From Cyclobacterium sp. SYSU L10401 (GTDB lineage: Bacteria; Bacteroidota; Bacteroidia; Cytophagales; Cyclobacteriaceae): a stretch of 63,442 bases of DNA. The notes beneath the pieces are model-generated. The model did no database searches and was not told the DNA's origin. It was given only the letters and a program-made list of their open reading frames with translations. Within the stretch, counting starts at the first letter, position 1; every line of letters starts with the position of its first letter. Positions 13,229-19,408 of the stretch are shown piece by piece. The stretch covers positions 1 to 63,442 of the forward strand of contig NZ_WOFO01000017.1 of NCBI RefSeq assembly GCF_010993705.1, in the 5' to 3' direction. Position numbers and translations under genes: made by a program.

Positions 13229-13365
13229 CCTCATCAGGCACCGGTCGGTCAGGAGGGACACAGGTGCAGGATAGATAATAAATAGCTCCCTTTCCAGCAG
13301 CCCATTCCTGGTTTGGCAATCAGGATTTTATCTGCAGCCAGCCGGGTATTTCTAATCAAAAAAAC

Positions 13366-13396
13366 TTGTGATATATAAAATTTGTCCTTAGAATTG
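13366..13396 (+). promoter_or_regulatory. Promoter of the thr operon
   Basis: TTG at 13366-13368, a spacer of 20, and TAgaATTG at 13389-13396 match the Bacteroidota primary sigma consensus (TTG, about 19, TAnnTTTG) with one mismatch in the -7 box. Transcription would begin near 13403, which leaves about 13 bases before the leader peptide ATG at 13416. Confidence 0.5.
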
Positions 13397-13415
13397 TCCC
13401 TTCAAATAAAGAAGC

Positions 13416-13529
13416 ATGGTTTTCGCAGTAAAAATTATTTCAAATCTTTCAAAAACCGGATTTATCCGGGATGCAACCTGCAACGTATTTTTTAGCGGCA
13501 ACACAACTACCACTTTCACCACGGGGTAA
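13416..13529 (+). CDS. thrL: Threonine-rich leader peptide
   Basis: A 37-codon reading frame starts with ATG and ends at TAA 86 bases before thrA. It has eight threonines, six of them in its last eight residues (NTTTTFTTG, 29-37), and three isoleucines. The end resembles the threonine/isoleucine leader peptide ThrL of enterobacteria. The predicted role is to sense charged tRNA-Thr: the ribosome would stall on the Thr codons when threonine is scarce, changing the RNA fold in front of thrA. The frame and codon run are directly visible; regulation is inference. Confidence 0.72.
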   Translation: MVFAVKIISNLSKTGFIRDATCNVFFSGNTTTTFTTG

Positions 13530-13591
13530 TCCCGTGTTTTGATTCATATTGCCTCAATACCAACAGGTCTTCTGCAGACCTTAATGATTAC
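13520..13591 (+). promoter_or_regulatory. Attenuator hairpins before thrA
   Basis: Three hairpins follow or overlap the leader peptide. H1 pairs CACGGG (13520-13525) with CCCGTG (13531-13536), covers the peptide stop codon and is followed by TTTT. H2 is TATTG/CAATA at about 13547-13559. H3 pairs AGGTCT (13565-13570) with AGACCT (13576-13581). GTAATC in H1 could alternatively pair with GATTAC at 13586-13591. Overlap of H1 with the last Thr codons means a ribosome stalled there would block it. Which hairpin is the terminator is not resolved. Confidence 0.55.
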
Positions 13592-13614
13592 ATTTTAACC
13601 GATAATAATTAGCA

Positions 13615-16062
13615 ATGAAAATATTAAAATTCGGAGGTTCGTCAATCGCTGATTTGGAAAGAATAAAAAATGTTCTCTCCATAGTAAAGAATGCTGCTCA
13701 AAAAGATGATATAGCGGTAGTTTTTTCAGCTTTTGGTGGGGTAACAGAGGATTTATTGAAATGTGCAGCACTGGCCAGGCAGAATGATCCTGAATACCAG
13801 CCGCTTTTGCTTTCCATGGAAAAGCGACACCTGCAATTGGTCAAAAACCTGATACCCGTGCAAAAGCAATCAGCTGTGCTGACCTATGTGAAGATCAGGT
13901 TCAATGAACTGGAAGATTTGTATCATGGCATATACCTGATCAAGGAATTTTCCCCCCGGACTTCTGATTATGTGGTCAGTTTTGGAGAGCGCATATCTGC
14001 CTTTATCATGGCGGAAGCCCTCAAGGAGACTGATCTGAACACGCATTATGTGGATGCCAGGGATCTGATCCGCACCAATGACCGGTTTGGAAATGCCAGG
14101 GTAGTTTTCCCTACGACCAATCAATTGATCTACGATTATTACAGCAAAAACAAAGGGCTCCTGGTGATTACAGGTTTTATTGCTTCCACTGATAAGGGAG
14201 AGACCACCACCCTGGGAAGAAGCGGATCCGATTATACGGCTGCCATTTTTGCAGCTGCCCTAAAAGCTGATGCTTTGGAAATCTGGACGGACGTATCAGG
14301 TGTCATGACTGCCGATCCCAAATTGGTGTATTCGGCCATCACCATCCCTCAGCTCAGCTATAGCGAAGCCATGGAGCTTTCCCATTTTGGTGCCAAAGTA
14401 GTTTTCCCAGCTACCATGCAACCTGCCATGAAAAGGAAGGTGCCCATCTATATAAAGAATACTTTCGAACCTGAGGAAGAAGGCACCCTTATTTGTGAAA
14501 CATCAGAGACAAACAAACTGATCAAGGGGATTTCATCACTGAGCCATATCTCCCTGCTCAATGTGCAGGGTTCAGGTCTGGTGGAAGTAGTAGGGGTAAG
14601 CAGCAGGGTGTTCGGGACACTGGCCCAGTCGCTGATCAACGTGGTGCTGATCAGCCAGGCATCCTCTGAGCACAGTATCTGTATCGCCATCAAAAGTGAA
14701 GATGCCGAAGTGGCCAGAGAAGTATTGGAGAAGGAATTTCACTATGAAATTCTGGCCGGGGAAATGGACAAGGTACAGATCATGCCCAATATGGCCGTAA
14801 TAGCCGTGGTAGGGGAAAACATGAAACACTATCCAGGTGCCAGTGGTAGGTTGTTTCAGGCTTTGGGCCGGAACAATATCAATGTTTCAGCCATCGCTCA
14901 GGGAAGCTCCGAGTTAAATATTTCTGCGGTCATCAAACAGTCTGACCTGCAAAAAGGTCTGAATGCGCTGCATGAAGCATTCTTCTTGTCAGACAACAAG
15001 GTACTGCATGTGTTTTTGGTGGGGGTAGGCCTCATAGGTAAGACGCTGATAAAAATGATTCAGAGCCAATTGAATAAATTGCAGGAGGAGTACATGCTGG
15101 ACATCAAAATTCATGGCCTGGCCAATTCCAGGTTTATGGCTTTTGACGAGGACGGTTTTGATTTGTCCACTGTTCCCGTGCCTTCAGAAAAGGACCTACC
15201 GATGAACCTTCCTGTTTTTCTGAACACCATGAACAGCATGAACTTTTCCAACTCTGTTTTGGTGGATTGTACGGCCAGCCAGGAAGTGGCCGATACCTAC
15301 GCCAGGGTGTTGGAATCTAAAGTGGCCATAGTCACCCCAAATAAAAAAGCCAATTCAGGTTCACTGGAAAAATACAAGTCACTCAAAAAACTTTCCGGGC
15401 AGCGCAATATCAAGTTTTTTTATGAGACCAATGTGGCGGCAGGTTTGCCGGTCATCAATACCCTTCAGGACCTGATTTTGAGTGGAGACAAAGTTCTCAA
15501 GATAGAGGGGGTATTGAGTGGGTCAATGAATTATATTTTCAGTGAATTGAGTAAGGGAATTCCTTTCAGCCAGGTAGTGGCTCAGGCCAAGGAAAAGGGC
15601 TACACCGAGCCTGATCCCCGCGATGACCTCAGTGGTATGGATGTGGCCAGAAAAATATTGATTTTAGGCCGGGAAGCCGAGCAGGATTTGCATTTTGAAG
15701 ATGTTTCGGTACAAAGTATGGTGCCGGAAGATTGTGCCCATATCGAGTCTGTGGGGGAGTTTTTGGAAAAACTGGAAGCGCATGACGGCCATTTTAAACA
15801 GCTGCTGGCGGAAGCCGATAAGAAGAAAGAGAAGCTCAGGTTCATGGCCGTTCTGGAAAACGGTAAAGCTACGGTAGGATTGAAGTCGGTGGATAGCAGT
15901 CATCCTTTTTATTCCCTGGTAGGAAGTGACAACATGATATTATTTACTACTGAAAGGTACCACGAATTTCCCATGATCATCAGGGGACCGGGGGCAGGAG
16001 CAGATGTCACCGCAGCGGGAGTTTTTGCAGATATCATCAGGCTAGGCAATTATTCAAGATAA
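13615..16062 (+). CDS. thrA: Aspartokinase/homoserine dehydrogenase, bifunctional
   Basis: An 815-residue fused enzyme that catalyses the first and third steps from aspartate to threonine and methionine. The N-terminal aspartokinase begins with KFGGSS (5-10) and has the TLGRSGSDYTA segment near 200. Two ACT-type regulatory regions lie at about 300-450 and usually give feedback control by threonine. The homoserine dehydrogenase part begins with the Rossmann motif FLVGVGLIG near 467 and includes the GSMNYIFSEL block and KGYTEPDPRDDLSG. The length is typical. It is the first gene of thrABC and is preceded by a threonine-rich leader peptide. Confidence 0.97.
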   Translation: MKILKFGGSSIADLERIKNVLSIVKNAAQKDDIAVVFSAFGGVTEDLLKCAALARQNDPEYQPLLLSMEKRHLQLVKNLIPVQKQSAVLTYVKIRFNELEDLYHGIYLIKEFSPRTSDYVVSFGERISAFIMAEALKETDLNTHYVDARDLIRTNDRFGNARVVFPTTNQLIYDYYSKNKGLLVITGFIASTDKGETTTLGRSGSDYTAAIFAAALKADALEIWTDVSGVMTADPKLVYSAITIPQLSYSEAMELSHFGAKVVFPATMQPAMKRKVPIYIKNTFEPEEEGTLICETSETNKLIKGISSLSHISLLNVQGSGLVEVVGVSSRVFGTLAQSLINVVLISQASSEHSICIAIKSEDAEVAREVLEKEFHYEILAGEMDKVQIMPNMAVIAVVGENMKHYPGASGRLFQALGRNNINVSAIAQGSSELNISAVIKQSDLQKGLNALHEAFFLSDNKVLHVFLVGVGLIGKTLIKMIQSQLNKLQEEYMLDIKIHGLANSRFMAFDEDGFDLSTVPVPSEKDLPMNLPVFLNTMNSMNFSNSVLVDCTASQEVADTYARVLESKVAIVTPNKKANSGSLEKYKSLKKLSGQRNIKFFYETNVAAGLPVINTLQDLILSGDKVLKIEGVLSGSMNYIFSELSKGIPFSQVVAQAKEKGYTEPDPRDDLSGMDVARKILILGREAEQDLHFEDVSVQSMVPEDCAHIESVGEFLEKLEAHDGHFKQLLAEADKKKEKLRFMAVLENGKATVGLKSVDSSHPFYSLVGSDNMILFTTERYHEFPMIIRGPGAGADVTAAGVFADIIRLGNYSR

Positions 16063-16063
16063 G

Positions 16064-17008
16064 ATGGAAAAGCAAAAAGTGACCGCCTTCGCCCCTGCTA
16101 CCGTAGCCAATGTTTCTTGCGGCTTCGATATCCTGGGCTTTGCCGTGGAAGATTTAGGAGACAAAGTCAGTGTATCCCTCTCCGAAAAACCGGGGATTCG
16201 TGTCACCAAAATTGAAGGGGATAAGGGCAAATTACCCTATGAGGCGGAGAAAAACACCTGCAGTGTGGCCATCATGGCCATGATGAAAGAGCTGGATTTT
16301 AATGGAGGATTGGAGATAGAATTGTATAAGGGACTGCCGTTGGGTAGCGGCATGGGTTCCAGTGCGGCCAGTGCTGTGGCGGCCTTGATGGCTACCAATA
16401 CCTTGTTGGGTAATCCATTTGAAAAAAAGGACCTGCTGCCTTTTGCCATGGAGTCTGAGCGAATTGCCTGCGGGGCAGCCCATGCTGACAATGTGTCTCC
16501 GGCACTCTTGGGAGGATTCGTTTTGATCCGGGAATATCATCCCCTGGATGTGATTCCGCTTCATGTTCCCAGGGGATTGTACTGCACCCTGGTGCACCCC
16601 CATCTGGTACTTAACACCTATGATTCCAGAAGCGTATTGAGAAGAAATGTGTCCCTGCAGGATGCTACCACCCAATCGGGCAATATAGCAGGTTTGGTGG
16701 CAGGATTATTTCAGGAAGACATGGCCCTTATCAGCCGATCTCTGAATGATGTCATTGCAGAACCCTCCCGGTCGGTTTTGATTCCGGGATATGATGAGGT
16801 AAAGGAGGGCATCAAGCCTGCCGGTGCCCTGGGATGCGGCATCTCCGGATCCGGCCCCACCATTTTTATTCTGTCTCCATCCGAGGAGATAGCCTGGGAA
16901 GTCAGCCGGCTGGCCCAACAGGTTTTTGACAAAATGCAGCTTCCCATCGACCTTTATGTTTCTGCTATCAATACCCGGGGAGCCTATATTATCGAAGAGG
17001 AAATTTAA
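16064..17008 (+). CDS. thrB: Homoserine kinase
   Basis: A 314-residue GHMP-family kinase that phosphorylates homoserine using ATP. The ATP-binding loop GLPLGSGMGSSAAS lies at about 89-102. The N-terminal strand with FAPATVANVSCGFDILGFA and the C-terminal GCGISGSGPTIFIL glycine-rich motif are both standard. It starts one base after the thrA stop, so translation is probably coupled. Confidence 0.97.
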   Translation: MEKQKVTAFAPATVANVSCGFDILGFAVEDLGDKVSVSLSEKPGIRVTKIEGDKGKLPYEAEKNTCSVAIMAMMKELDFNGGLEIELYKGLPLGSGMGSSAASAVAALMATNTLLGNPFEKKDLLPFAMESERIACGAAHADNVSPALLGGFVLIREYHPLDVIPLHVPRGLYCTLVHPHLVLNTYDSRSVLRRNVSLQDATTQSGNIAGLVAGLFQEDMALISRSLNDVIAEPSRSVLIPGYDEVKEGIKPAGALGCGISGSGPTIFILSPSEEIAWEVSRLAQQVFDKMQLPIDLYVSAINTRGAYIIEEEI

Positions 17009-17036: not shown

Positions 17037-18332
17037 ATGAAATATTACAGTACCAATAACGCCAATCATAAGGTAGATATAAAGGAGGCAGTCATCAAAG
17101 GCCTGGCACCGGATCAGGGCTTGTATATGCCTGAAAACATACCTACTTTGCCTGCTGCTTTTTTTGACCGATTGCCTGGGCTGTCTTTTAGAGAAATGGG
17201 CTATGAAATCATCGGCGCTCTGTTTTCGGAAGACCTCAGTCCTGAACAAATTAAAGCACTGGTCGACCATACGCTGACCTTTGATGCCCCCCTGTTGCAG
17301 GTAGAAGAGGACGTTTACAGCCTGGAATTATTTCACGGGCCCACCCTGGCCTTCAAGGATTTTGGTGCCAGGTTCTGTTCTAAATTAATGAGCATGCTTC
17401 AGGACAAGCGGGAGATCAAAGTTTTGGTGGCTACCTCCGGGGATACGGGCAGTGCAGTGGCCAATGGTTTCTTTGGAGTAGACGGAGTGGAAGTCATCAT
17501 TCTGTATCCTTCAGGCAAAGTAAGTCAATTGCAGGAAAAACAATTCACCACATTGGGAGGAAATATCCGGGCAATAGAGGTAGCAGGTGTATTTGATGAT
17601 TGCCAGAAAATGGTCAAGCAGGCCTTTCTGGATCCGGAGTTGAACAACAAAATGCTTTTGACCTCTGCCAACTCAATCAATATTGCCAGGTGGATTCCGC
17701 AATGCCTCTATTATTTTTATGCCTATTCCCGTTTACCGGAAAAGGATAAAAAAATCGTATTTTCCGTACCTAGTGGAAATTTCGGCAATCTTGCGGCTGG
17801 TATCCTGGCGGAAAGGATGGGATTGCCCATCACTTATTTTGTAGCCGCTACCAATATCAATAAGGTGGTACCGGACTACCTGCAGGGAGAGGAATTTATG
17901 GCCAAACCTTCCCTTCAAACCATCAGCAACAGCATGGATGTAGGGAATCCAAGTAATTTCTATCGCCTGTTGGCACTTTTTGGCAATGATGAATCCAAGT
18001 TGAAGGAAAAAGTGAAGGGCTATTTTTATACCGATAACATGACCCGTGAGTCCATGCTGAAAGTAAAGTCCCAAACCGGTTATACCATGGATCCGCATGG
18101 AGCAGTAGCCTATCTGGGATTAAAGGATTTTATGAGTGCGCATCCAGGGACCTTTTCGGGGGTATTTCTGGAAACAGCTCATCCGGGGAAGTTCCGCCAG
18201 GTGGTGGAAGAAACCTTAGCCATTCAGCTGGATTTACCTGAGCGCTTACAGGCTTTTATGGAAAAGGAGAAAAAGGCGGAAAAAATGGAAAACGATTACC
18301 TTGAATTCAAGAAATATTTATTGACCATTTGA
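17037..18332 (+). CDS. thrC: Threonine synthase
   Basis: A 431-residue PLP enzyme that converts phosphohomoserine to threonine. The PLP lysine is K107 in GPTLAFKDFGARF. The phosphate-binding SGDTGSAVANGF motif and the SANSINIARWIPQ block follow. The ATG at 17037 matches the family N-terminus (MKYYSTNN); an upstream in-frame ATG would start inside thrB. It ends the thrABC operon, with a short hairpin and T-rich stretch downstream. Confidence 0.97.
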   Translation: MKYYSTNNANHKVDIKEAVIKGLAPDQGLYMPENIPTLPAAFFDRLPGLSFREMGYEIIGALFSEDLSPEQIKALVDHTLTFDAPLLQVEEDVYSLELFHGPTLAFKDFGARFCSKLMSMLQDKREIKVLVATSGDTGSAVANGFFGVDGVEVIILYPSGKVSQLQEKQFTTLGGNIRAIEVAGVFDDCQKMVKQAFLDPELNNKMLLTSANSINIARWIPQCLYYFYAYSRLPEKDKKIVFSVPSGNFGNLAAGILAERMGLPITYFVAATNINKVVPDYLQGEEFMAKPSLQTISNSMDVGNPSNFYRLLALFGNDESKLKEKVKGYFYTDNMTRESMLKVKSQTGYTMDPHGAVAYLGLKDFMSAHPGTFSGVFLETAHPGKFRQVVEETLAIQLDLPERLQAFMEKEKKAEKMENDYLEFKKYLLTI

Positions 18333-18493: not shown

Positions 18494-19408
18494 ATGGTTA
18501 AGGGCACTCACCAGGCAAAGGAAGACAAAAGAAATCAATCGGTTAAAATATTTATCAATGGAGAGTTTCTTCCAAGAGAGGAAGCCAAAATATCTGTTTT
18601 TGACAGCGGGTACCTGGTAGGGGATGGGGTCTGGGAGGCTTTCCGCGTCCATGATGGGCGCATGATTTTTATTGATCTGCACCTGGACCGCTTGTGGCAA
18701 TCGGCAAAAGTCGTTGGCATAACCATTCCCTTCAGTAGGGAAGTGTTGGTAGATAAAATCCGGAAGACACTTGCGATCAATGAGATGAAAGACCACATCC
18801 ATGTCCGGGTGATGCTGACCCGAGGTATAAAAGCAACACCCTCTCAGGATCCCAGACTTACCATTTCAGGACCTAACCTGGTGATCATTGCTGAGCACAA
18901 AGAAGCGGCTGATGAAAGTAAAAACCAGGGAATCAGCTTGTTTACCAGCACCATCAGGAGAGGTTCTCCGGATTACCTGGACCCAAGGCTGAATTGCCAC
19001 AGTAAACTTCACGAGGTTCAGGCCCTGATACAAGCCATAGAAGCCGGAGCCGATGAAGCCTTAATGTTGGATATTAACGGTTTTGTGGCTACTTGTAATG
19101 CCACCAATTTTTTCATGGTAAAAAACGGAGAGGTCTGGACGTCTACCGGCGAATACTGCATGAACGGCATCACCAGAGGAAACATCATCCGGGTTTGTGC
19201 GCAAAATAACATTACCTGTCACCAAAAGAATTTTTCTTTATTTGATGTTTATGGAGCGGATGAAGCGTTCGTTACCGGAACCTTTGGCGGGCTTACACCG
19301 GTCATAAAAATTGATGGCAAGCCTGTAGGACAGCCTGAAGCCGGACCTTTGACCAGGCAGCTGAGGAAGGGATATGAAAAGTTAATTGAAAAAGAGATCC
19401 AGTCATGA
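18494..19408 (+). CDS. Class IV aminotransferase, atypical
   Basis: A 304-residue PLP enzyme of fold type IV, related to branched-chain and D-amino-acid aminotransferases. The N-terminal block FDSGYLVGDGVWEAFRVHDG is clear, and K171 in CHSKLHEVQ is the probable PLP lysine. The usual Glu that contacts the PLP ring nitrogen (in G-x-V-x-E) is missing: the block reads NGFVATCNATNFFMV. The substrate is therefore uncertain, and an ilvE label would be unsafe. The stop overlaps the start of the next gene by four bases (ATGA), pointing to a joint function with the sulfotransferase-like protein. Confidence 0.85.
   Translation: MVKGTHQAKEDKRNQSVKIFINGEFLPREEAKISVFDSGYLVGDGVWEAFRVHDGRMIFIDLHLDRLWQSAKVVGITIPFSREVLVDKIRKTLAINEMKDHIHVRVMLTRGIKATPSQDPRLTISGPNLVIIAEHKEAADESKNQGISLFTSTIRRGSPDYLDPRLNCHSKLHEVQALIQAIEAGADEALMLDINGFVATCNATNFFMVKNGEVWTSTGEYCMNGITRGNIIRVCAQNNITCHQKNFSLFDVYGADEAFVTGTFGGLTPVIKIDGKPVGQPEAGPLTRQLRKGYEKLIEKEIQS

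Follow-up and report, generated by a model that had tools for sequence, protein, structure and literature searches.

The thrABC locus and its leader peptide

The window, by which we mean the whole stretch of 63,442 nucleotides that was analysed, comes from a genome of 5.9 Mb whose nearest relatives are Cyclobacterium (Bacteroidota, Cyclobacteriaceae). Its plus strand carries the operon thrABC, in which thrA (13615..16062, ATG at 13615; PRK09436, 1050 bits) encodes bifunctional aspartate kinase / homoserine dehydrogenase I, thrB (16064..17008) homoserine kinase, and thrC (about 17040..18332, start provisional; TIGR00260) threonine synthase. All three exceed the NCBIfam cut-offs. ThrA shares 96% identity with its C. 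plantarum counterpart and 87–96% with those of seven other Cyclobacterium loci. The aminotransferase encoded after thrC (18494–19405) resembles branched-chain aminotransferases and scores under the curated cut-offs of the families shown. Elsewhere in the window, at 1682–1757, lies a group II catalytic intron RNA (Rfam, 64.1 bits).

Upstream of thrA, an ORF of 37 codons (13416..13529, plus strand; MVFAVKIISNLSKTGFIRDATCNVFFSGNTTTTFTTG) ends in NTTTTFTTG with the stop codon TAA at 13527–13529, as the original prediction had it. The presumed regulatory codons, ACA ACT ACC ACT TTC ACC ACG GGG (13503..13526, plus strand), directly precede the stop, and six of these last eight leader codons specify Thr. 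This Thr excess is, as claimed, far above chance: when the upstream region was shuffled 100 times by dinucleotides, no ORF carrying 6 Thr within 9 codons appeared. A short ORF with a run of Thr codons upstream of a Thr biosynthetic operon is the arrangement expected of an attenuator.

Conservation of the Thr codons in relatives had been set beforehand as a test. In our genus sample of 12 Cyclobacterium genomes, the window's own counted, a Thr-rich leader end precedes thrA in all 12; the peptides start with MVFAV and end in ...TTG or ...ITG, and the leader stop codon ends 83–85 nt 5' of thrA in every genome. Across the family, where this distance ranges from 70 to 200 nt, the leaders usually end in ...TTTITG or similar. 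A model built from 39 loci found matches in 106 of 344 family genomes. Seventy further matches were read individually, and all end in ...TG followed by a stop codon. The 107 distinct family loci have Thr at codon −2 without exception, at −5 in 95 cases, at −4 in 70 and at −6 in 53; as this set was found partly with a model containing the leader end, the invariance of the last codons is partly an effect of how the loci were chosen. All four Thr codons are used at −3 to −8 (ACC 171, ACT 64, ACA 48, ACG 23) and vary synonymously among relatives, the amino acid being kept and the codon free. Three loci with unrecognised thrA starts (L087, L091, L095) were excluded from all upstream counts, and for L048, which lacks a stop codon at the usual place, the stop was placed manually. 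A Thr-rich leader peptide before thrABC, kept in the genus and widely in the family, is thus confirmed.

The leader promoter

The promoter first proposed was a TTGTGA-17-TAGAAT match starting at 13366. Alone it carries little weight, because the scanned region holds five such matches against 2.5 expected. Both hexamers also agree with TTG-N20-TAGAATTG, the Bacteroidota form (13366..13396, plus strand; TTG at 13366–13368 and TAGAATTG at 13389–13396). Promoters of this phylum have a −33 part. Their −7 box is given as TAnnTTTG (PMC9723704). The pattern TTG-N19..22-TAnnnTTG occurs in 31 of 40 family loci, 12 of which are close relatives within the genus, and in 1 of 40 on the reverse strand; one of the 31 (L056) is doubtful. 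An in-frame ATG lies 15–22 nt 3' of this form in 30 of the 31. An upstream promoter is accordingly retained in its conserved form, the hexamer match by itself is not, and, judged from this conservation, the promoter is predicted to put the leader on the operon transcript.

The stop-codon hairpin and a motif at fixed distance

The leader stop codon lies within a hairpin, P2 (13520..13536, plus strand), CACGGGG-TAA-TCCCGTG (CACGGGGTAATCCCGTG), with a core of ACGGG/CCCGT at 13521–13535; in the window it is followed by TTTTG. Of 107 family loci, 103 have a P2 of −5 kcal/mol or better. Its arms pair better with their own partners than across loci (0 of 2000 permutations with 69 representatives; P 0.002 with 42), in tests that leave shared ancestry in place. 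Other families have the sequence inverted, ACCCC/GGGGT versus ACGGG/CCCGT. The rows of alignment A2 were chosen for all five pairs, so that its 100% pairing is by construction and the evidence it offers is the swaps between families.

Nine nucleotides past the P2 core lies a conserved motif, CATATTGCC (13545..13553, plus strand), a candidate RNA polymerase pause site. At +8..+38 from the stop, YATAY was found in 79 of 107 loci, where single-base shuffles predict 19. In the 78 family loci that have both parts, the motif starts 9 nt after the end of P2 in 38 and 8 or 10 nt after it in 22 more. This spacing stays constant both where the stop codon lies beyond the end of the hairpin and where it precedes that end; it tracks the hairpin and not the stop codon, which suggests that the motif is read by RNA polymerase. 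With a hairpin lying about 9 nt upstream of a conserved motif, the unit is arranged like a hairpin-stabilised pause, and we regard it as a candidate for one by analogy. The his and trp leaders of E. coli have such a pause near the leader stop, where about 11 nt separate the hairpin from the RNA 3' end; the thr unit is alike in its hairpin geometry near the stop and differs in motif sequence and in the missing terminator, and its pause is putative.

Other stems and alternative pairings

Two further hairpins, both anticipated, are present. The first is a small one within the leader ORF, CCGGATTTATCCGG (13456..13469, plus strand), with similar short inverted repeats seen by eye in genus loci. The second, P3 (13565..13581, plus strand), AGGTCT-TCTGC-AGACCT, has no U-tract after it in the window. 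For P3, too, the arms pair best within their own locus (0 of 3000 permutations), again in a test that leaves shared ancestry in place. The segment +28..+68 exceeds shuffles in stability (mean z −1.97, 73 representatives). The best second hairpins mostly begin 31–42 nt past the stop, and at several genus loci the 3' arm of the second hairpin is itself U-rich.

A possible stem P1 (13425..13481, plus strand) would join GCAG (13425–13428, codons 4–5) to CTGC in mid-leader (13478–13481). It has only 4 pairs in this species and is longer in relatives. Own pairing exceeded cross-pairing with P 0.002 in a window picked post hoc and with P 0.09 in the first, wide one, so that a stem between leader codons 3–6 and mid-leader is suggestive only.

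The fold of the whole upstream region is not unusually stable compared with shuffles (z −1.1). RNAalifold returned only 3 pairs for the 39-row alignment A1 (L059 omitted from 40), and the model R1 is therefore close to a sequence profile. Searched against 39 genomes, model R2 had a single clear match, at thr, in each of 11 of the 12 genus genomes and reached only E 3.0 in the twelfth (G011); the 15 weaker matches, when read as possible further copies in the 39 genomes, looked like background.

Candidate antiterminator and terminator pairings found no support, being no better than cross-paired controls among 69 representatives, where some segments hardly vary. The values were P 0.14 for the first P2 arm with the motif segment, P 0.40 for the motif segment with the P3 arm, P 0.29 for the second P2 arm with P3, and P 0.56 and P 0.06 for the upstream leader with the motif and with the second P2 arm, respectively. 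As alternative helices are unsupported, the anatomy does not explain antitermination by a stalled ribosome.

Terminators at thr, ilv, trp and his

A uniform test for U-tract terminators, applied to the 12 genus genomes, was passed before ilvD in 12, trpE in 11, hisG in 2 and thrA in 2. Predicted energies at ilv and trp range from −14.4 to −20.1 kcal/mol; both his cases, at −6.0, are weak. The two thr matches are weak too, one at the stop hairpin of the window (−9.1 kcal/mol, TTTTGATT) and one elsewhere, in L020 (−8.4). Outside the genus the same test was passed by ilv in 7 of 18, trp in 12 of 18, his in 7 of 18 and thr in 1 of 5. Between the thr leader and thrA, no conserved intrinsic terminator was found, 3 of 107 family loci passing the family terminator test.

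In the window's genome, the ilvD leader MFILVSLVVLIVIII (L215) and the trpE leader ...IQIWWWLTYFF (L246) both come with strong U-tract terminators. Before hisG, peptides such as ...HHAGHHCS* occur in relatives and a weaker one, ...HHANHMVTGK* (L180), with no terminator, in the window's genome. The class sample contains further hisG leaders (L356–L381) with His leader peptides, and strong terminators were seen by eye in 21 of these 26 loci. Four of five hand-picked family his leaders (L195, L197, L201 and L203; not L196) have the thr-type hairpin and motif. The presence of ilv, trp and his leaders in the phylum argues that leader-peptide attenuation is general there and that the thr leader is the exception. 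All these leaders resemble the thr leader in encoding, ahead of the operon, a peptide with runs of the amino acid concerned; those of ilv and trp in the genus differ from it in their strong U-tract terminators. TATTG, a motif of the ilv, trp and his leaders, was considered as an equivalent pause mark and dropped by eye, as its spacing disagrees.

These data bear on a first alternative, an ordinary enterobacterial-type attenuator in which P2 with TTTT, or else P3, is a weak intrinsic terminator and the usual 1:2, 2:3 and 3:4 pairing decides. The stop hairpin of the window, with its T run, does pass the loose terminator test as cited above; U-rich stretches follow the downstream hairpin in some relatives, two of which (L071, L352) have AGGC-TTTT-GCC and six T; and 16 of 73 representatives pass the loosest test after the downstream hairpin (E<=−3 with at least 5 T in 8), a count that falls to 5 of 73 when at least 6 T are required. 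Leaders of enterobacterial type are moreover present in other Bacteroidota. However, of the 105 family loci with a measurable hairpin, only three (the window, L052 and L335) have a run of 4 T after P2, and within the genus the window is the only one. TTTT directly after P3 occurs in 0 of 73 for hairpins of at least 13 nt; admitting shorter or weaker ones raises this to 3 of 73. Given also the few passes in the family test, the cross-pairing results and the strong terminators that the same genomes use at ilv and trp, we consider this alternative unlikely. For the original prediction, the hairpin over the stop codon stands, and covaries, while TTTT as part of a conserved terminator is not supported.

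A second alternative is that the leader governs translation or stability of the thrA mRNA and not transcription. A structure, or else a site of cleavage, would be opened or protected as the leader is translated, CATAT being an AU-rich cleavage site between two hairpins. The lack of a conserved terminator is in keeping with this, as are the position of CATAT between two conserved hairpins and the stretch +8..+40, which is no more folded than shuffles (z −0.10). Nearer to thrA, however, there is no conserved structure, +40..+80 being no more stable than shuffles (z 0.19, 73 representatives), the distance from stop to thrA varies as given above, and in the genus transcription terminators accompany the ilv and trp leaders; we judge it improbable. 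Finally, the small ORF might encode a functional small protein or have arisen by chance, the conserved DNA being promoter and RNA structure only. This would agree with the conserved first residues MVFAV in the genus and is nevertheless very hard to uphold, as the family shares mainly the Thr/Ile-rich end, no shuffle reached the window's Thr run, and the ORFs before hisG, ilvD and trpE carry runs of His, Ile/Val/Leu and Trp instead.

Distribution of Thr-rich leaders

To survey thrA more widely, 144 upstream regions were tested, of which 40 belong to the window's type and 104 do not; they are a subset of the matches from genus, family and phylum samples, and 43 phylum regions were hand-chosen from a longer list. 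With 200 shuffles per region, a Thr-rich small ORF was found at p<=0.01 in 28 and at p<=0.05 in 33 of the 104 others, and in 27 and 31, respectively, of the 40 of the window's type, so that 13 of these 40 miss p<=0.01 on Thr count alone. Many thrA upstream regions are without a Thr-rich ORF, for example the three tested from family f16 and the one from f12.

For comparisons of anatomy, 33 other leaders were hand-picked (p up to 0.10, some discarded as not leader-like); the unpicked count of 29 leaders at p<=0.02, which includes at least one chance-looking ORF (L160), is preferable. Among these 29, hairpin and motif occur together in 19 of 24 without a terminator and in 0 of 5 with one (Fisher 0.002), although sequences within one family are related and such counts are not independent events. 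The hairpin alone is not clearly tied to the lack of a terminator (20 of 24 versus 2 of 5, P 0.07). As background, 768 other small-ORF stops from the 144 regions include 49 with the hairpin and 5 with hairpin and motif. In 21 leaders of other types that have both parts, the motif lies at 8–10 nt in 16; positions in L154 and L157 (spacing 26 and 21) were mis-picked by the loose pattern.

The stretch at +6..+70 is C-rich and G-poor, with a median C/G ratio of 1.8 over 107 loci. Ratios of 0.69–1.48 in 7 leaders with a terminator and of 1.00–4.25 in 26 without form a biased comparison, because terminator stems balance C and G.

Thr/Ile leaders occur in other Bacteroidota lineages too, and several look enterobacterial and have strong terminators (L067, L097, L132, L147, L148, L155). 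Two of the five of these scanned match the Rfam Thr_leader family weakly (L155, E 0.0015; L147, E 0.015), below the gathering score. As to whether the likeness to ThrL is convergent or reflects a general mechanism, the general mechanism is favoured by the Thr/Ile leaders in several Bacteroidota lineages and by the leaders at his, ilv and trp within the genus; simple convergence does not explain everything, since these two thr leaders weakly match RF00506. The ThrA of a Peregrinibacteria metagenome contig (L010) is 50% identical to that of the window over residues 1–813. In G259 (L092), G255 (L093) and G170, the reported thrA match has one internal in-frame stop codon.

Discussion

Attenuation is textbook knowledge in E. 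coli, and the ThrL attenuator of enterobacteria has a Thr/Ile-rich leader peptide before thrABC and a hairpin near the leader stop. The present locus is alike in these respects; here, however, there is neither a conserved U-tract terminator nor a supported antiterminator pairing, and an additional CATATnnYCC stands at fixed distance. Membership in the Rfam family Thr_leader (RF00506) did not hold up: no match was obtained in the whole window at the gathering score, or in 13330–13620 at up to E 10. Nor did any described Rfam family of T-boxes or riboswitches match, in the whole window or in 13330–13620 to E 10. To our knowledge, little is known of ribosome–RNA polymerase coupling, pausing and termination in Bacteroidota.

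For F. psychrophilum, the main text of PMC9723704 describes strong clues that amino acid operons are preceded by leader peptide attenuation, and structured elements preceding hisG and pheA; the terms threonine and thrA are absent from that main text, and the stop-hairpin/CATAT unit is absent from its section on structured elements. Attenuation surveys by the same group are cited in PMC4833913. Vitreschak and colleagues reportedly predicted, in 2004, attenuators in some Bacteroidetes/Chlorobi. Together with the ilv, trp and weaker his leaders of the same genome, the published Flavobacterium clues make an attenuator in Bacteroidota unsurprising. Among the matches listed in a title search, in which subscription journals mostly fall outside, none but PMC9723704 concerned a Bacteroidota thr attenuator or a stop-hairpin/CATAT element, which is weak evidence of novelty.

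We favour, as the probable reading, ribosome-mediated thr attenuation in which the hairpin–pause unit would replace the intrinsic terminator, so that the earlier attenuator interpretation is supported in part. From what comparison of loci has established, namely the promoter, the leader, Thr-codon conservation, P2, P3, the motif at fixed spacing and the absence of a conserved U-tract terminator, we infer the sensing of Thr, the direction of control and the pause. Transcription would begin just 3' of TAGAATTG, and the leader would be translated at once. The leader, its codons and its position point to tRNA-Thr charging as what the ribosome senses; its speed over the Thr codons (Thr and Ile codons in relatives) would report charging and set read-through into thrA. 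RNA polymerase probably pauses about 10–14 nt past the stop hairpin, at CATATTGCC, and would thereby stay near the leader ribosome. With ample Thr, the ribosome would reach the stop codon, open the hairpin and depart, and the bare C-rich, G-poor stretch before thrA would permit premature termination independent of a U-tract. The simplest candidate for this step would be Rho, on account of the base composition of that stretch, for which the one comparison at hand is the biased one given above; its role as the terminating factor is speculative. With scarce Thr, the ribosome would be held on the Thr codons and the downstream genes would be expressed.

A stop hairpin with a motif at fixed distance and no usual terminator suggests a little-described version of the classic amino-acid switch. 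It is conceivable, if less than probable, that Bacteroidota have a second and so far undescribed kind of attenuator under ribosome control, at thr and, in some lineages, at his, in which the stop hairpin and YATAYnnYCC about 9 nt on form one pause/release signal for RNA polymerase in place of the U-tract; termination would then depend on a factor (Rho or other) and be set by the leader ribosome reaching the stop. The genus carries both sorts, ilv and trp with normal terminators and thr with no conserved one, which offers a direct test of a U-tract substitute, and the element is short and portable (hairpin, 9 nt, CATATnnYCC) and measurable in reporters.

A separate variation was noted at four loci (L092, L093, L134 and L135). 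Their leaders end in TTTTTP or TTTTTTP, the stop hairpin is TACCCCTTAGGGGTA or a close variant, with CATATAATCC, and the second hairpin is large and has a U-rich 5' arm.
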